A DNA stretch of 35,321 bases, taken from positions 1-35,321 of the forward strand of contig CACAAZ010000014.1 of NCBI GenBank assembly GCA_902530685.1, given 5' to 3'. The notes under the pieces were generated by a model, which ran no database searches, was not told where the DNA came from, and was given only the letters and a program-made list of their open reading frames with translations. This document shows positions 20,680 through 33,848 of the stretch, one piece after another. The translations under genes and the position numbers were made by a program. This stretch comes from an uncultured Alphaproteobacteria bacterium. GTDB taxonomy: Bacteria > Pseudomonadota > Alphaproteobacteria > HIMB59 > GCA-002718135. Position 1 is the first letter of the stretch, and the number at the start of each line of letters is the position of its first letter.

Positions 20680-21459
20680 TTATAACTCTAGTTCTTTAGC
20701 GAGGTCTCCGATTTGTGCACCCCCGGCCATTAATCTCTTTACATCCTCACCACCTAGATCATTTGCTAACCCACTACCTATAACTTCTCCTAGACTTAAG
20801 AATGTATATCTATCGGCAATAAGTCTTGCGTGTATTTCATTATGTGTAATTAGAATGATTGCTATGTTGCCAAGTCTTTGAACTTTTTTTATTGTTTTTA
20901 AAACTTCCATTTGTTGTTTTTGACCAAGAGCGGAAGTTGGTTCATCTAAGATTAATATTTTTGCTCCAAAATAAATTGCTCTAGCTATTGCTAAAGTTTG
21001 TCTTTGTCCTCCTGACATGGTTCCTACTTTTTGATTAGGATCAGCGATATTTATTCCAATTTTAGACATTTCTTCAATTGTTATTTTATGCATTTCATCC
21101 ATTTGCATAAGGCCAAACGGTCCTGGTCCTTTTTTTAATTCTCTTCCTAAGAAAAAATTTAATGTAACAGAGGTTAAATTATTTAGAGCAAGATCTTGAT
21201 ATACTGTTCCAATACCTGCATCAGAGGCTTGTCTAGGAGAAGCAAATTTTACAAATTCTCCATCTACTTTAATTTGACCTTTAGTTGCAGGATGCACACC
21301 AGATAAAACTTTAATTAAGGTTGATTTACCTGCACCATTATCACCAAGTAATGCATGCACTTCCCCAGGATATACGTCGAGTGATACTCCATTGAGCGCT
21401 GTAAAACTTCCAAATTTTTTTACCAAATCTTTAATTTCGATTAGAGGCTTTTTATTCAT
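20680..21459 (-). CDS. Sugar ABC transporter ATP-binding protein (single NBD, Frc/Rbs type), system 2
   Basis: 259 aa; GDNGAGKST, MSGGQRQTLAIARAI, ILILDEPTSAL. Confidence 0.95.
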   Translation of the reverse strand: MNKKPLIEIKDLVKKFGSFTALNGVSLDVYPGEVHALLGDNGAGKSTLIKVLSGVHPATKGQIKVDGEFVKFASPRQASDAGIGTVYQDLALNNLTSVTLNFFLGRELKKGPGPFGLMQMDEMHKITIEEMSKIGINIADPNQKVGTMSGGQRQTLAIARAIYFGAKILILDEPTSALGQKQQMEVLKTIKKVQRLGNIAIILITHNEIHARLIADRYTFLSLGEVIGSGLANDLGGEDVKRLMAGGAQIGDLAKELEL

Positions 21460-23051
21460 TAAATACTACCTACAATTCTTCTTCTTATATTTTCATTTGT
21501 TAAAGCAGCAGTTACCAGCACAGCACCTAAGAAGACACGATAAAAGGAGCCATCTACACCAGGAATATAAAAGAATGCTTCTTTAGCAATACCAAATATT
21601 ACAGCTCCAAGCATTATGCCCATAATTGATCCAAAGCCTCCAGTAAGAACTACACCACCGATCACGGCCGCAGCAATTGCTTCTAATTCTTTTAAATTTC
21701 CTTTAGCAGTGTCAGCAGTATTTACCTCAAATACTTGGCAAGCAGCAAAAATTGTTGCACAAAAAGCTGTAAACATAAAAAGGCCAATTTTTACTTTGTT
21801 CGTGGGTACACCATTTGCCTGAGCAGCAGAAAGATTGCCACCTGTCGAATATATCCAATTACCTACTTGTGTTTTACTTAAAACAAAGTAACAAATTATA
21901 GCAAGTAAAACCCAAATCATAACGCATGAATAAAATCCTGGAGCAAATTTGTTTCCAAACATATTTACATTCCAGTCTGCTGTAAAATATAACCAATCAA
22001 AAAAAGGCTCTAAAATGTCGCCGCCAAAAAAGTTGGCTACTGGTCTAGCTGTTATAAAGGTATCTATATAAGCTCTTGCTAAATCTAACTCTGTAACTGA
22101 TTTCGCAGCAATTTCTGGAACTTGAATACCAGCATCTATCTTTTTTTGTATAGCCTCAACCATCGATTCATTTCCAGATTTTTGAGCATTTTCTAAAGTT
22201 TTTTGCATAGTATCTACCATTTTTTGTTTTTGTAAAAGAGTTTTGGTAATTGCTACTTTCTCATTAATGTATGTTAATTGTTCTGTAAGTTTCTCAACTG
22301 TACTTTGAGGTGCTGTTTTCAAAATTTCTAATAATTCATCATTAGATAATGCTTTAGCTGCATCTCTTTCTATTTCACCGTGACCAGGAACATTAATTAT
22401 ATTTTTTATATCTGGAAGATCGGTTACTGTTGTTGATCCTGCCGTTTGATCAGGAGCTTTATTAAATGCTCTGTAGCAGACTTCAGTTAAACCTCTTAAA
22501 AAAAATAATCCACCTAAGGTAACTATAAAAGAAGCAATTCCACTTTTTACAATTACATACCCTTGAAACCAACCGAATGACAATGTCATTACTAGAGTAA
22601 TTAATAAAGCTGTTAGTGGCGATACATTAGTTATTTCAAAAATTTTGAGTCCTTCAAAATGAAAGCCTCCTTCAAAAGAAATATAAGGTATTACAATAGC
22701 AAAACCCCATTTAAGAATAATTGCCATTGCTCCACCAGCAAATCCAATCATTGATCCAACACTCAAATCAAATTCACCAGCGATAATCAACATACCAGCA
22801 CCAAGAGCTACAATCCCTAGTTGGGAAATGACACGAAAATTATTTCTTATTCCAAGTGCATTAAAACCTTCTCCTGCAAAAGGGTTTAAAGAAAACTCAC
22901 CCTGTGGAATTGAAAAATAACCGAGCATTGCAAAAAGAAGCAGCATAACACCTAGAGGCCCAATTTCTGGTCTTGCAAAGATTTTAGAATACCATCTACT
23001 TGGTTTTAAGCGATCAGACTCTTGTCTTTTTACTTCTTGGCTGGAATTCAT
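21459..23051 (-). CDS. Sugar ABC transporter permease (RbsC/FrcC family) with large internal insertion, system 2
   Basis: 530 aa; AGEFDLSVGSMIGFAGG, VIGGVVLTGGFGSIMGIMLGA core motifs; hydrophilic ~125-aa insertion (about aa 210-335). Confidence 0.92.
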   Translation of the reverse strand: MNSSQEVKRQESDRLKPSRWYSKIFARPEIGPLGVMLLLFAMLGYFSIPQGEFSLNPFAGEGFNALGIRNNFRVISQLGIVALGAGMLIIAGEFDLSVGSMIGFAGGAMAIILKWGFAIVIPYISFEGGFHFEGLKIFEITNVSPLTALLITLVMTLSFGWFQGYVIVKSGIASFIVTLGGLFFLRGLTEVCYRAFNKAPDQTAGSTTVTDLPDIKNIINVPGHGEIERDAAKALSNDELLEILKTAPQSTVEKLTEQLTYINEKVAITKTLLQKQKMVDTMQKTLENAQKSGNESMVEAIQKKIDAGIQVPEIAAKSVTELDLARAYIDTFITARPVANFFGGDILEPFFDWLYFTADWNVNMFGNKFAPGFYSCVMIWVLLAIICYFVLSKTQVGNWIYSTGGNLSAAQANGVPTNKVKIGLFMFTAFCATIFAACQVFEVNTADTAKGNLKELEAIAAAVIGGVVLTGGFGSIMGIMLGAVIFGIAKEAFFYIPGVDGSFYRVFLGAVLVTAALTNENIRRRIVGSI

Positions 23052-24089: not shown

Positions 24090-25934
24090 TTACACACCTT
24101 TTCTTTGTATATTTTTGCCATCCATATGTTCTTGAAAAGCTTTTTTATTGGCATCAGAATTACCAATCTCTAAAGTTGGACTTTCCCAATACGCTGTGCC
24201 ATCTAACCATTCGTATCCATGTGTTTCTATAGAAATAACATAGGTTTTATCAGATTTTTTTGCTCTCTCAAAAGCTGCTTCTAAATCTGTTATTGATTTT
24301 ACTGTTTCAGCATTTGCACCCATACTTTTCGCATGAGCTTCAAAATCAACAAATTGTAGTTGAGACGCATTTGCAGCTCTTAGGTTACAAAGATACTCTT
24401 TACCTCCCTTTGCTAATTGAAGTCGGTTTATGACCATATGTCCACCGTTGTCACAAACTACAATTATTAATTTCTTATTATAAATTACCGAACTGTAAAT
24501 ATCACTATTATGCAGTAGGTATGAACCATCACCAACAAAGACGATAACATCTTGATTAGGTTTTGCCATCTTAATACCAAGTGCGCCAGATATTTCGTAA
24601 CCCATACAGCTAAACCCCCACTCAGTCTCAAAAGTATTTCGTTGTTTTGGTTTCCAAATTTGTACAGTTTCACCTACAAGGCCGCCAGCTGCTGTTACAA
24701 CAATATCAGATTTATCTGCTTTTCTGTAAACCGCACCAACTGCGTGTGCATAAGAGGGTATTTCTTGATTAGTTGGGCCACTTTGTTTTTCTATGTAAGT
24801 TTCCCATTCTTTTTTTTCTTTAAGAGCTCTAACGTACCATTGCTCAGGAGCCTTCCAATCACCTAAAACTTTTGAGAGTTCTTGTAAACCAATTTTTGCA
24901 TCACTTATCATTGGTGAAGCTCTATGTTTATTAGAATCAAATCTCGAAGTATTTATTGAAGCTAATCTAAAATTATCATTTTGAAAATTTGTCCATGATC
25001 CAGTTGTAAAATCAGAAAGTTTAGTTCCAATTGCTAGAGCTAAATCAGTATCTTTTGAGAGGCTATTTGATGAACCATCTCCTAAACATCCAATAGCACT
25101 TATATAATAAGGATCATCTTTATCCATACAGCCAATACCCATAACTGTTGAAGTAACAGGTATATTATGCTTTTTTGCAAAGTCTGATAGTTCATTTTCT
25201 GCTTCAGAATAAAGTACTCCACCGCCTGAAATAATTATTGGTTGTTTAGATTGTATTATCTCCTTAGCAACCCTCTCAACTTGTCTTGGATCAGGGTGAA
25301 TGCGTCTAATTTCATGAACCTTTTCCTCAAAAAATACCTCTGGATAATCATATGCTTCTCCTTGAACATCTTGAGACATTGATATTGTTGCAGGGCCACA
25401 TTCTGCTGGATCTAACATTACTTGGATTGCTTGTGGTAGAGAAGATAGAATTTGCTCTGGTCTTGTTATCCTATCGAAATATTTTGAGACTGATTTAAAA
25501 GCGTCGTTTTGAGTAGTTGTGGGGGAATTAAAATTCTCTACTTGTTGTAAAACTGGATCTGGGAAACGACTAGCAAAAGTGTCACCGGGAAGTAGTAAGA
25601 TTGGTAGTCTGTTGCTTAGAGCAACTGCTGCTGCAGTAACCATGTTTGTGGCTCCGGGTCCAACAGATGAAGTAGCAATAAATATTTGTTTGCGTCTCAT
25701 TGCACGGGAATAACCAATACCAGTTAATGCCATGTTTTGTTCATGATGCCCTCTATAGCCTGGAAGTTGATCTTTGAATTCCTCCATAGCTTGACCTAAA
25801 CAAGCAACATTGCCATGACCATATATTCCAAAGGCTCCAGGAAATAATGGGAGTTTATTTCCATTAATAATAATTTTTTGAGCTATAAGATATTTAAAAA
25901 GTGCATGTGAACAAGTAAGCTTTTGAGTTTTCAT
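24090..25934 (-). CDS. iolD: 3D-(3,5/4)-trihydroxycyclohexane-1,2-dione hydrolase
   Basis: 614 aa TPP enzyme; FPGAFGIYGHGNVACLGQAM, YRGHHEQNMA, SSVGPGATNMVTAAA, FVGDGSYLLHNSDIYSSV typical of IolD. Confidence 0.93.
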   Translation of the reverse strand: MKTQKLTCSHALFKYLIAQKIIINGNKLPLFPGAFGIYGHGNVACLGQAMEEFKDQLPGYRGHHEQNMALTGIGYSRAMRRKQIFIATSSVGPGATNMVTAAAVALSNRLPILLLPGDTFASRFPDPVLQQVENFNSPTTTQNDAFKSVSKYFDRITRPEQILSSLPQAIQVMLDPAECGPATISMSQDVQGEAYDYPEVFFEEKVHEIRRIHPDPRQVERVAKEIIQSKQPIIISGGGVLYSEAENELSDFAKKHNIPVTSTVMGIGCMDKDDPYYISAIGCLGDGSSNSLSKDTDLALAIGTKLSDFTTGSWTNFQNDNFRLASINTSRFDSNKHRASPMISDAKIGLQELSKVLGDWKAPEQWYVRALKEKKEWETYIEKQSGPTNQEIPSYAHAVGAVYRKADKSDIVVTAAGGLVGETVQIWKPKQRNTFETEWGFSCMGYEISGALGIKMAKPNQDVIVFVGDGSYLLHNSDIYSSVIYNKKLIIVVCDNGGHMVINRLQLAKGGKEYLCNLRAANASQLQFVDFEAHAKSMGANAETVKSITDLEAAFERAKKSDKTYVISIETHGYEWLDGTAYWESPTLEIGNSDANKKAFQEHMDGKNIQRKGV

Positions 25935-26030: not shown

Positions 26031-26351
26031 CTATATATTTAGATAAAGGCTACCTTTGTCTTCTATAATATCGAATATTTTTAAAGGAATTTGATCTAGA
26101 TCTGAAGTAGGATCTCCAGATACTATACTGAAAGTATTTCCGCAACTTGGACACTCAAGTTCTTCTCCTTCGATACTTGATTCACTTAATAAAGATCGGT
26201 CTGCACATGTACAATTACCCTGTGTTGCAAAAAAACCAGCCTCGATTCGAAATATTGCATAGTTGATTTCATCGTGTTCAAAATTTTCAACAGTGCCAAT
26301 TTCTATATCTTCAACTTCTCCAATCAACAGCGGTTCAAAATCATCATTCAT
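26031..26351 (-). CDS. Rieske-type ferredoxin homologue with Cys in place of both ligand His residues
   Basis: 106 aa; AIFRIEAGFFATQGNCTCADRSLLSESSIEGEELECPSCGNTFSIVSG aligns with the Rieske pattern CTH..L..G...G..I.CP.HG..F but reads CTC ... CPSC. Confidence 0.8.
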   Translation of the reverse strand: MNDDFEPLLIGEVEDIEIGTVENFEHDEINYAIFRIEAGFFATQGNCTCADRSLLSESSIEGEELECPSCGNTFSIVSGDPTSDLDQIPLKIFDIIEDKGSLYLNI

Positions 26352-26414: not shown

Positions 26415-27569
26415 TTATCTGAATCTTAAATTTTTACGTGACAATTCTGAGATATTATTTACCCCCATTAATTTCATGTCTCTTTCAATTTCATTTCTCA
26501 TATTAGTCATTGCTCTATCAACACCTTTTTGTCCACCAGCTGCAAGAGCATAAAGGTACATTCTACCTCCCGAACATGCTTTTGCACCTAAGGAGAGTGC
26601 TTTTAAAACATGGGTACCACGTCTAATACCACCTTCACATATTACATCTATTTTATCGCCAACTGCATCTACTATTTCAGCAAGTTGATCAAATGGAGAT
26701 CTGGAACCATCTAGTTGTCTACCACCATGATTGGATATCATTATTGATGTCGCTCCAACGTCTACTGCCCTTTTTGCATCTTCAACTGACATGACCCCTT
26801 TTATAGCAAATTGACGACCCCATTGTTTATTAATAGCTTCAACATCTTTCCAACTTAGCGAATTATCTAACATTTTAGTAAAATAATCTCCAATTGTAGT
26901 CATAACTTTAGTTCCCTCACTTATATGATCTTTTAAATTACTTAGTTCCCATTTTGGTCTTATAAAATAATTTAATGCCCACATTGGATGAATAGCAAAA
27001 CTAAGTATGCTACTTAGTTTTAATTTCATAGGTATTGTAAACCCTGTATACAAATCTCTTTCTCTGTTACCTCCTACAGCTGTATCGACCGTTACTGCCA
27101 TAGCCTCAAAATTAGACTCTTTACACCTCTCTATAAGCGCATTATTTAATCCTTTGTCTTTATGAACATATAGTTGAAATAGTTTTGGGGAGCTGACTAA
27201 ATTTGAAATTTCCTCAATACTTGCAGTTCCAAGTGAGGAAATACCAAACATAGTTCCATGTTTTTCAGCTGCTTTTGCAACAGCTATTTCTCCTTCATGA
27301 TGAAACAATCTTTGGAGAGCTGTTGGGGCACAATATATTGGAATGTCTAATTTTTGCCCCATGACTGTTGTTGACATATCTACTTTATCAACCCCACTTA
27401 AGACATTTGGAACTAAATCACATTTCTCAAATGCTTCCGTATTTCTTTTGTAAGTTATTTCATCATCTGCTGCACCATCTATGTAATGAAAAATTGGTCC
27501 AGGTAATTTCTTTTTAGCTAGCTTTCTAAAATCTTTTACATTGTGACAGTTGTTAATACTACCTATCAT
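26415..27569 (-). CDS. lldD: FMN-dependent alpha-hydroxy acid dehydrogenase (L-lactate dehydrogenase type)
   Basis: 384 aa; FHYIDGAADDEIT, ISNHGGRQLDGSRSP, CEGGIRRGTHVLKALSLGA. Confidence 0.88.
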   Translation of the reverse strand: MIGSINNCHNVKDFRKLAKKKLPGPIFHYIDGAADDEITYKRNTEAFEKCDLVPNVLSGVDKVDMSTTVMGQKLDIPIYCAPTALQRLFHHEGEIAVAKAAEKHGTMFGISSLGTASIEEISNLVSSPKLFQLYVHKDKGLNNALIERCKESNFEAMAVTVDTAVGGNRERDLYTGFTIPMKLKLSSILSFAIHPMWALNYFIRPKWELSNLKDHISEGTKVMTTIGDYFTKMLDNSLSWKDVEAINKQWGRQFAIKGVMSVEDAKRAVDVGATSIMISNHGGRQLDGSRSPFDQLAEIVDAVGDKIDVICEGGIRRGTHVLKALSLGAKACSGGRMYLYALAAGGQKGVDRAMTNMRNEIERDMKLMGVNNISELSRKNLRFR

Positions 27570-28417
27570 TATGCAGAGATTGTTTTTTGTCTTTGTTCTC
27601 CAAGACCTTCTATTCCAAGCTTTATTTCATCACCCGCTTTTAAGAATACTTGTGGGTTCATACCCATTCCAACTCCTGGTGGTGTACCAGTAGATATAAC
27701 ATCACCTGGTTGTAATGACATAAACTGGCTTAGGTAACTAATTAAAAAATTAACACCATAAACCATTGTATTAGTTGACCCATCCTGCATTCTTTGCCCA
27801 TTAACATCTAACCACATTTTAAGATTTTGTGGATCTGGAACTTCATCAGGAGTAACTAAATATGGCCCAATTGGTCCAAACGTGTCACAGGATTTACCCT
27901 TGACCCATTGACCTGAGTGTTCAATTTGAAATTCTCTTTCACTTAAGTCGTTAATTACACAATATCCAGCTATGTGTGATTGAGACTCTTTTTCTGAAAT
28001 ATATTTTGCTTCTTTTCCTATTACAACTCCAAGCTCAACTTCCCAATCAGATTTTACAGATTTTTTTGGAATTTCAACGTCGTCATTAGGACCAATAATT
28101 GCACTTGTTGCTTTAAAAAAAATTACAGGTTCAGGAGGTACTTCTAGACCCGACTCTTTTGCATGGTCTGCATAATTTAAGCCAATGCAAATAAATTTAC
28201 CTATACTTTTTTTACAAACACAAGGTGCTATACCATCACTATTATCAACTTTAGGTAATGAATTAATATCTGCATTTTTTGCTTCAGTTAATTTTTCAAC
28301 AGTAACATTTTCACTATCCCAATCTTTTACTATGCTTGAGGCATCACGTATATTACCATCTATATCTAAAATTCCTGGCTTCACTTCGTTTCCAATTCTA
28401 TATCTAATCGTTTTCAT
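27569..28417 (-). CDS. Fumarylacetoacetate hydrolase family; probable 2,4-diketo-3-deoxy-L-fuconate hydrolase
   Basis: FAH core CIGLNYADHAKESG, EVELGVVIGKEAKYIS, ISTGTPPGVGMG; TAATG coupling to the upstream SDR supports a start at 28417 (track start 28429). Confidence 0.85.
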   Translation of the reverse strand: MKTIRYRIGNEVKPGILDIDGNIRDASSIVKDWDSENVTVEKLTEAKNADINSLPKVDNSDGIAPCVCKKSIGKFICIGLNYADHAKESGLEVPPEPVIFFKATSAIIGPNDDVEIPKKSVKSDWEVELGVVIGKEAKYISEKESQSHIAGYCVINDLSEREFQIEHSGQWVKGKSCDTFGPIGPYLVTPDEVPDPQNLKMWLDVNGQRMQDGSTNTMVYGVNFLISYLSQFMSLQPGDVISTGTPPGVGMGMNPQVFLKAGDEIKLGIEGLGEQRQKTISA

Positions 28418-29154
28418 TATAAGGTCCATCCTCCATCTATTAGGTTCAAAGTTCCGGTCACAAAATCAGATTCATCACTTGCTAAATAAGTTGCAAGGGA
28501 TGCAATTTCTTCTGGTTGAGCAAGCCTGCCCATGGCTTGTCTTGCAATAAAATCTTCTCTAGCTTTTATTGGATCTTCAGCCATATTTACTCTTCCTGTC
28601 CATGAAGGTGTTTCAACTGTGCCAGGTAAAATTGCATTACATCTAATACCTTGTTTTACATAGTCTATAGCTAAAGCTTTCACAAACCCGTTTAAAGCTG
28701 CTTTGGTTACACCGTAGATAAATCTATTTGGCGCACCTTTGACACTTGATGCTGCAGAAGATACGATAATTATATTTCCTTTACCTTTTGTTATCATTTT
28801 AGGTAATAAATTGTAACTCATTAGGTAAGCTGAGTATATATTAACATCGATTGATCTTTTAAATTCATCATCATTGCAATCCATTAATGTGCCATGATGA
28901 ACGAAACCAACAGCATGAAATAGAATGTCAACATCATCTAAGCTTGTACAGAATTTTTCTACTGCTATTTTATCAGTTGCATCAAGTTGCTGGATTTGAA
29001 TATCTGAATTTTCTTTAGCTAACTCAGCTAATTTTTCTTTATTAATATCTGTAGCAGTAACTAAAGCACCTTCCTTTGCAAAATTAATTGCTGTTGCTTT
29101 TCCAATGCCTTGTGCTGCAGCTGTTACAATTATTTTTTTATCTTTCAGTCTCAT
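28417..29154 (-). CDS. SDR; probable 2-keto-3-deoxy-L-fuconate dehydrogenase
   Basis: 245 aa; VTAAAQGIGKATA, YGVTKAALNGFVKAL, CNAILPGTVETPSW; placed between fuconate dehydratase and FAH hydrolase. Confidence 0.82.
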   Translation of the reverse strand: MRLKDKKIIVTAAAQGIGKATAINFAKEGALVTATDINKEKLAELAKENSDIQIQQLDATDKIAVEKFCTSLDDVDILFHAVGFVHHGTLMDCNDDEFKRSIDVNIYSAYLMSYNLLPKMITKGKGNIIIVSSAASSVKGAPNRFIYGVTKAALNGFVKALAIDYVKQGIRCNAILPGTVETPSWTGRVNMAEDPIKAREDFIARQAMGRLAQPEEIASLATYLASDESDFVTGTLNLIDGGWTL

Positions 29155-30452
29155 ATTTGATTTTTCCAGTATTCTCCATTAGGAAAAGAAAACTCATTAA
29201 CAGACTTTTCTTTCATTTCAATAGAATATCCATGATCCATAGGCGGCATATAATTACCATCTACAATTTTGCATGGGTAAATAAAGTGCTCGTGAAGACT
29301 ATCCTGATACTCAACTACTTTATTATCTTTGGAGCCATTAATTAATACATAATCAATCATGCATAAATGTTGTACATATTCACAAAGACCAACTCCACCC
29401 GCATGTGGGAAAACTGGTACATTAAATTTATGCGCCATAAGTAAAACTGTTAGTATTTCATTGATACTTCCTAAACGACAGCTATCCAATTGGCAAATAT
29501 TCATCGCACCAGACTCTAAGAACTGTTTAAACATAATTCTACCTCCACATGCTTCTCCAGTTGCCAGTCTTACATCACCAACTTCCTTTTTTATTTTTAC
29601 AAAACCCAAAACATCATCTGGACTAGTTGGCTCTTCAACAAAAAATAAATTAAATTTTTTATACGCATTTATATGTCTTATTGATTGTTCAATGCTCCAT
29701 TGTTGGTTGGCATCAACCATTATGAAACATTCTTCTCCAATCGTCTTTCTTATTAGATCTAATCTTTTTACGTCTGCTTCTAAATCTAAACCAACTTTAA
29801 TTTTAAAGTGCCTCCATCCCATTGAAATATAACGGTTACAAAGCTCAATAATTTTATCATCACTGTAGCCCAACCAGCCAGCAGCTGTAGTGTAAGATGG
29901 ATAACCTTCATTTAAAATTGTTTTTATTCTTTCATTTTTTTTTGCTTGATTATTTTTAAGAATTTTTAATGCTTCTTCTGGAGTTAAAACATCTTCAATA
30001 TATTTAAAAGTTAACCAAGAAAGAATTTTTTCTGGTTCAGTATCTACAATAAATTTCCAAAGTGGTTTTTTATTTTTTTTTGCTATTAAATCCCATAAGC
30101 AATTAAATATAGCAGCAACTGCCATATGGACGACGCCTTTTTCTGGGCCTAGCCATCTTAATTGGCTGTGATCTACACACTTAAACCATAGTTTTCCTAT
30201 GTCATTTTCTAAATTATCTAAAGACATATTTTCAAAGATCGGAAAAAAATGTTTGATACATTCTGCAACAATGTCGTTCCCTTTTCCAATTGTAAAAGCA
30301 ATACCGTAACCCTTTAAATTTTTATCATCAGTATATGCTGTTACATAAGTAGCTGAATAATCAGGATCTGTATGAATTGCGTCTGAACCAGTTAAATCTT
30401 TGGATGTTGGGAACCTTACATCATTAACTGTAAAATTTATTATCTTGGTCAT
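29151..30452 (-). CDS. L-fuconate dehydratase (enolase superfamily)
   Basis: 433 aa; DVRFPTSKDLTGSDAIHTDPDYSATYV, WLTFKYIEDV, FKIKVGLDLEADVKRL, MVDANQQW, FFVEEPTSPDDVLG, FPHAGGVGLCEYVQHL. Confidence 0.93.
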   Translation of the reverse strand: MTKIINFTVNDVRFPTSKDLTGSDAIHTDPDYSATYVTAYTDDKNLKGYGIAFTIGKGNDIVAECIKHFFPIFENMSLDNLENDIGKLWFKCVDHSQLRWLGPEKGVVHMAVAAIFNCLWDLIAKKNKKPLWKFIVDTEPEKILSWLTFKYIEDVLTPEEALKILKNNQAKKNERIKTILNEGYPSYTTAAGWLGYSDDKIIELCNRYISMGWRHFKIKVGLDLEADVKRLDLIRKTIGEECFIMVDANQQWSIEQSIRHINAYKKFNLFFVEEPTSPDDVLGFVKIKKEVGDVRLATGEACGGRIMFKQFLESGAMNICQLDSCRLGSINEILTVLLMAHKFNVPVFPHAGGVGLCEYVQHLCMIDYVLINGSKDNKVVEYQDSLHEHFIYPCKIVDGNYMPPMDHGYSIEMKEKSVNEFSFPNGEYWKNQI

Positions 30453-32714: not shown

Positions 32715-33848
32715 TTATTCTTTAAAACTTTTATTGTACATGTCGCATAATTTTTCACAAATACTTTCAGCTGAAATATTTGATTGCAAATACTCATTAA
32801 TTAAATCTCCACTTTTATCCTGAAATTCCATATACCCATTATGTCTTGGCCTAACCCATGCAAGTTCTAGCGTTTTACGAGTACCTTTGAAAAAATTGGA
32901 GGTTTCTAAATTTATTTTTTTATCCTCCCATGCTTCAGAGTTTCCAGGTTGTCCACCACTTTCGTAGAATAATGATTTCTGACACTCTGCACCAGCTATC
33001 CAAAAAGCATATTCTAGTGCTAAGTCTTTATTCTTACTTACATTTGATATGGCTATACCTGTTCCTCCTAAATGTGTTCCGGCTGGACCCTTGCCTGATA
33101 AATTCATAACATCAATATATTTTAAAATATTTTTTCTATAATTTTTTCGTGAATAATTAGAAAAACCATAAATGTATGGACAATAATAAAAATCATTCGT
33201 CTCTGTCATTAATTCAGCGGTTTGAATTGGGTCCATTGTTAAACAATCTTTTATTAATTCGTTAGATACAGCTTTCATCATATTAAGAGTTTTAGTTCCA
33301 AAATCTTTATCTATAAAATCTTTTCGTTCTGGAATTAATTCCTGGGTCAAATTATTATAAATACTATAAAAACTGCTTATTGCATGAACAGGTTTTAAAG
33401 GCCAAAGCACTCTATTATTTTTTGCTAAACCAATTAAAGCATTCCAATTTAAAGGATGGCTTCCAATCAGGTCATCTCTATAACAAGCAGTTTGTGATGC
33501 TGCATCAATAGCTAATGCCCATTGTTTATTATCAATAAAATAACTTTGGTGTGATTTTCCTACAGACTGCAATTTTAATTTTTTTATCTGTGACTCATAT
33601 TGAGGTAAATCTAAATTTTGAAGTAAACCTTTACTGGCCACTTCGCCAACATGCGGATAGTCTATGACAATCATATCATAATCATCAGTCATCTCCTCAA
33701 TGGGTCTATCAGCAAATGCTTGTAAAGGTCTTTTATCCCAATTAATTACAACTTTATTGTTGTGTAACTCTTGAAATTTTTTTGAAGTTGCAACCATAGG
33801 ATCAAATCCTCTAGAATGATCCCAAGTCATCCCTTTCAAAGTAATCAT
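32715..33848 (-). CDS. Extracellular-solute-binding-protein-like protein without signal peptide
   Basis: 377 aa; [24 protein letters not shown]..., [43 protein letters not shown] typical of family 1 SBPs; start fixed by 4-bp ATGA overlap with the upstream MaoC gene, leaving no hydrophobic N-terminus. Confidence 0.75.

Follow-up and report, generated by a model that had tools for sequence, protein, structure and literature searches.

Rieske proteins form a class defined by two histidine ligands, which also set its potential and proton coupling. The described proteins closest to the one reported here are the Rieske ferredoxins of aromatic-ring dioxygenases (CarAc, BphF and the naphthalene dioxygenase ferredoxin), cytosolic carriers of about 105 amino acids with which it shares fold, length and ligand positions. 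Four cysteines with a CxxC knuckle are also present in rubredoxin and in Dph3/Kti11, of which Dph3 has a CxC in loop 1, although the overall fold of these proteins differs. Kti11 was termed a rubredoxin-like electron carrier (PMC10468694). On the Rieske scaffold itself, histidine was replaced by cysteine in laboratory variants of the Sulfolobus Rieske ferredoxin ARF (H64C, H44C/H64C and H44I/K45C/H64C); the double mutant was mostly devoid of a [2Fe-2S] cluster and the triple mutant, which mimics rubredoxin, held Fe(Cys)4 (PMC2946596).

We report here a natural protein in which both histidines are replaced, encoded in a window (the whole stretch of DNA that was analysed) of 35,321 nucleotides from an uncultured alphaproteobacterium. 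A preliminary description of this window had proposed a Rieske-type ferredoxin with CxC and CxxC at the ligand positions, located between lldD and iolD, with a possible role as electron carrier or metal sensor in sugar-acid oxidation, and had mentioned MocE, a Rieske-type ferredoxin of rhizopine catabolism.

Fold, motifs and conservation of the four-Cys protein

The gene and its two motifs are located as follows:

26031..26351, minus strand: four-Cys Rieske-fold protein (ORF, PF00355, orthologues, AlphaFold model and Foldseek)
26205..26213, minus strand: loop 1 motif C47-T-C49, at the Rieske C-x-H position (sequence, alignment to 1vck and 1fqt, Cys in 48 of 48 orthologues)
26142..26153, minus strand: loop 2 motif C67-P-S-C70 followed by the invariant G71, at the Rieske C-x-x-H position (Cys and Gly each in 48 of 48)

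The ORF starts with ATG and encodes 106 amino acids. The cysteines are encoded by TGT (C47, C49, C67) and TGC (C70), as the preliminary description had read them, and phmmer alignments to PDB entries 1vck (CarAc) and 1fqt (BphF) agree with the proposed positions, the four residues lying on or adjoining the Cys/His/Cys/His ligand columns. The proposed scaffold was also supported. The Pfam Rieske model PF00355 scored 22.1 bits against a cut-off of 20.3 and matched all 18 clade members tested (E up to 0.1), the best PDB sequence matches were Rieske ferredoxins of dioxygenases (1vck, E 3.9e-11), and a profile search led to the same proteins. An AlphaFold model (mean pLDDT 87, pTM 0.73) retrieved with Foldseek CarAc (E 1.7e-7, TM 0.82), the naphthalene dioxygenase ferredoxin (TM 0.85) and the toluene dioxygenase ferredoxin among its top matches, with TM about 0.8. 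As modelled, the fold is still Rieske throughout.

Other families fitted less well. The LysW-like zinc ribbon PF21344 (15.3 bits, cut-off 27) and the Trm112 zinc ribbon PF03966 (14.8 bits, cut-off 22) gave weak matches over the second motif. Zinc-ribbon homology was dropped as an ancestry, given these scores, PF00355 above its own cut-off and the Rieske fold; the nature of the metal is a separate question. The second motif fits the CxxCG half of the rubredoxin pattern CxxC ... CPxCG, but the first is CxC; a Pfam scan gave no rubredoxin match and the comparison with Dph3 was not significant (E 0.5-0.9). A place in the MocE family was not supported, TIGR02377 scoring 31.3 bits against a cut-off of 136.15; canonical MocE-like ferredoxins are nevertheless the nearest sequence relatives found, and the same genome encodes a separate one. 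By descent and fold the protein is thus kin to Rieske ferredoxins, yet it stands outside the Cys2His2 ligand class, since the defining set of two Cys and two His (C-x-H ... C-x-x-H) is replaced by C-x-C ... C-x-x-C in 48 of 48 orthologues.

Orthologues were gathered by tblastn with no requirement for cysteine; 86 of the 110 genomes in the window's family have one, at 57-75% identity, and 64 loci were taken from public assemblies, nearly all of uncultured Alphaproteobacteria. All four cysteines are invariant in the 48 distinct orthologues, down to about 60% identity, and further loci, several of them from other genera of the family, are also four-Cys. Sequencing error, which had been judged unlikely from the codons, and an isolated mutation are therefore ruled out, given the 48 orthologues and the conservation seen in about 86 species-level genomes. 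Other differences accompany the ligand change. The inter-motif spacer is of 17 residues in all 48 four-Cys orthologues against 16 in 40 of 40 canonical relatives, and loop 2 reads C-x-x-C-G in all 48, whereas Rieske relatives have C-P-x-H-[QNAG]. A loop proline, present in 38 of 40 canonical relatives, is kept in only 17 of the 48, and the mean net charge is about -24 (range -20 to -28) as compared to -10.5. Purifying selection acts on the gene: the median pairwise dN/dS is 0.063 (384 pairs) and TGT and TGC switch freely at all four Cys codons, in a nucleotide set that was picked by the Cys motif and is informative for synonymous switching and dN/dS only.

Origin and distribution

In a tree of 63 sequences, the four-Cys proteins form one clade (support 97/95) with one change, and hence have a single origin. 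The stem branch of this clade is long (1.39 changes per column) and raised a long-branch warning from the tree tool; the tree leaves the exact sister group unsettled. Searches of 385 genomes of the class, 399 of the phylum and two more groups, all of them samples, gave only weak matches outside the family (at most 62 bits, against about 190 in the clade). The outside relatives inspected, four matches from the two extra groups being left out, all carry CxH/CxxH. Among the genomes sampled, the four-Cys clade is thus confined to a single, streamlined family of marine Alphaproteobacteria, which is probably AEGEAN-169, an assignment drawn in part from a published fucose operon (PMC11366302). A second origin elsewhere is possible, since the sets searched are samples. 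Spread by virus or plasmid was considered and dropped: a scan of viral contigs gave no relative, and the one plasmid match (32%) carries the annotation of a ferredoxin subunit of a non-heme iron oxygenase.

The canonical MocE-like ferredoxin of the same genome lies on another contig (C9; L164:6622-6930), in a sugar-transport locus where it neighbours ThuA-like and Gfo/Idh-type genes and ABC sugar permeases. In relatives, this canonical ferredoxin adjoins a ferredoxin reductase; no reductase (PF14759) was found in the window's own genome, which is incomplete, and none adjoins the four-Cys gene. No Rieske oxygenase was found in G078 (96% complete), G037, G049 and G088, all four of which carry the four-Cys protein. 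Partnership with a Rieske oxygenase as a general role is ruled out by these several near-complete genomes without the enzyme.

The deoxysugar-acid operon

An L-fuconate-type deoxysugar-acid operon ends with the four-Cys gene; its other genes and, in addition, the iolD-like gene are the following:

29151..30452, minus strand: L-fuconate dehydratase (FucD/ENOSF1-like, enolase superfamily; PDB 4a35 E 7e-147, 2hne E 1e-136)
28417..29154, minus strand: SDR-family enzyme (SDR family models; substrate inferred from the operon)
27569..28429, minus strand: FAH-family 2,4-diketo-3-deoxy-sugar-acid hydrolase (PDB 8gsr E 1e-90; NF053535 390.6 bits, under the cut-off of 500)
26415..27569, minus strand: LldD-type FMN-dependent L-2-hydroxyacid dehydrogenase (PF01070 E 6e-130; PRK11197 311.7 bits, under the cut-off of 376)
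24090..25934, minus strand: iolD-like ThDP enzyme (TIGR04377 770.8 bits, over the cut-off of 715)

Since FucD matches L-fuconate dehydratases (2hne) and the hydrolase matches 8gsr, an L-2,4-diketo-3-deoxyrhamnonate hydrolase, the operon should, by analogy with established pathways, yield pyruvate and L-lactate from L-fuconate or a close relative, with LldD predicted to oxidise the lactate. A fucose pathway was reported for AEGEAN169 'Ca. Indicimonas' (PMC11366302). The context of sugar-acid oxidation put forward earlier is in line with this succession of FucD, SDR enzyme, hydrolase and LldD.

The order FucD, SDR, FAH hydrolase, LldD and four-Cys gene is nearly constant among relatives. In the window, lldD lies directly upstream of the four-Cys gene with a gap of 63 nt, in which no terminator-like site was seen and folding was unremarkable. 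The four-Cys gene directly follows lldD in all 84 genomes where both were found, at 45-80 nt from the lldD match in 83 of them. In G043 (contig C10:33668-34546), a shortened lldD match with an in-frame TGA lies 314 nt from an intact four-Cys gene. The proposed location between lldD and iolD thus holds in the window and, for lldD, across relatives; iolD often lies in the vicinity, though as a rule not directly adjacent, an opposite-strand 2-hydroxyacid dehydrogenase intervening in most relatives, and the link to iolD was abandoned.

Other exceptions to the operon order are contig ends (G008, G107, G010, G003) and two draft genomes. In G103, SDR, hydrolase and four-Cys gene are present and a search for lldD gave none. 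SDR, hydrolase and four-Cys gene are all absent from G109, which has retained lldD and the downstream 2-hydroxyacid dehydrogenase (L142:8479-10617, with no four-Cys gene between them). The four-Cys protein therefore tracks the SDR enzyme and hydrolase more closely than LldD, which, with one draft genome for each case, gives only a hint of a tie to the pathway as a whole and not just to LldD.

Two further genes of the window deserve mention. An ORF resembling solute-binding proteins (32715-33848, minus strand; PF13416), with no evident signal peptide, lies inside the operon between genes for a CaiB-type CoA transferase and a MaoC-type dehydratase; its position is kept in relatives and it evolves fast (47-91% identity). 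An ABC sugar permease of 530 amino acids (21459-23051, minus strand) has, relative to the usual permease domain, a long central insertion that is in part coiled-coil-like.

Proposed function and comparison with known systems

The explanation that we favour, tentatively and as a whole at somewhat less than an even chance, is that the single-origin four-Cys protein would be a small, soluble, very acidic metalloprotein, predicted to be cytosolic, that carries electrons for the fucose-type pathway through one redox-active iron centre fed by LldD. Its predicted role is most likely that of a one-electron carrier. L-lactate released by the pathway would be oxidised by the FMN enzyme LldD, the most plausible source of electrons, and the four-Cys protein would pass these to a respiratory or other acceptor. 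LldD is proposed as donor because of its adjacency, its opposite charge and the energetics. It is indeed the sole basic enzyme of the operon proper (net charge +2 to +7); such pairing is consistent with the proposal but not specific, since the LldD of G109 is equally basic without a four-Cys protein. LldD-type enzymes usually hand their electrons to quinone with no ferredoxin involved, which counts against a carrier for LldD, as do the closer association with the hydrolase in G103 and G109 and the lack of a neighbouring reductase gene.

The four cysteines may hold a rubredoxin-like Fe(Cys)4 site somewhat more probably than an all-Cys [2Fe-2S] cluster. The CxxCG knuckle, the frequent loss of the loop proline and the outcomes of the ARF mutants all lean towards a mononuclear site, whereas the C-x-C of loop 1 has Rieske rather than rubredoxin (C-x-x-C) spacing and counts against it. 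That an all-Cys [2Fe-2S] ferredoxin was retained on the Rieske scaffold, as a low-potential carrier comparable to plant-type ferredoxins, for this pathway or for some other redox enzyme, seems to us rather unlikely. Descent from Rieske proteins and the retained spacing of both motifs speak for such a cluster, the constant extra spacer residue could be a compensating change, and the H64C variant of ARF holds a low-potential 3Cys/1His [2Fe-2S] cluster; on the contrary, the engineered double Cys mutant mostly failed at cluster assembly (PMC2946596), the second loop has been remodelled with the loss of its proline in most orthologues, and no tie to a Rieske oxygenase was seen in the four genomes named above. 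As to energetics, the potential of lactate is about -190 mV (textbook value). All-Cys [2Fe-2S] centres range from about -100 to -450 mV (PMC6006211), which is low for electrons from lactate.

With a Zn(Cys)4 site, the protein would be a non-redox module resembling a zinc ribbon, serving structure or interaction, that binds or controls an enzyme of the pathway such as the SDR enzyme or the hydrolase. The weak LysW and Trm112 matches, the fact that the gene accompanies SDR and hydrolase in G103 and is missing together with them from G109, and a known pathway that needs no redox protein beyond its NAD and FMN enzymes would all suit such a module, but zinc-ribbon models stay below their cut-offs while PF00355 exceeds its own, the modelled fold is Rieske throughout and a strong acidity like this one is usual for electron carriers, so that we consider it improbable. 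Finally, the loss of the canonical ligands and the long stem branch might suggest a degenerate former ferredoxin, metal-free and functionless; four cysteines kept in every orthologue, the low dN/dS and a conserved operon position make this extremely improbable.

Returning to the proposed iron-binding carrier, the locus may, at rather less than an even chance, record a natural cofactor switch in which one bacterial family made of a [2Fe-2S](Cys)2(His)2 ferredoxin a metalloprotein with four Cys, perhaps a rubredoxin-like carrier with mononuclear Fe(Cys)4, whose dedicated role is in the catabolism of deoxysugar acids. The Rieske scaffold and engineered variants with cysteine for histidine were already known; the new element is a naturally fixed all-Cys version, of which no report was found in the open-access literature, most subscription journals being outside the scope of the search. 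Compared to the Rieske ferredoxins of dioxygenases, the protein has cysteine for both histidines and neither oxygenase nor reductase alongside, and its 17-residue spacer equals that of BphF, not that of its nearest canonical relatives. Unlike it, MocE-like ferredoxins, including the paralogue of the same genome, keep CTH/CPxH. A fixed natural version shows that the ligands, and maybe the cofactor too, can be exchanged in evolution with the fold kept, and it adds a putative metalloprotein to the fucose catabolism of a clade that abounds in the open ocean. The ARF variants are laboratory mutants, whereas the double replacement described here is naturally fixed and accompanied by further surrounding changes; about 70 distinct natural gene sequences are available for finding the second-shell changes that enable a replacement which mostly did not work in the engineered double mutant. 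If true, the cofactor switch would parallel in nature what the ARF triple mutant achieved by engineering.
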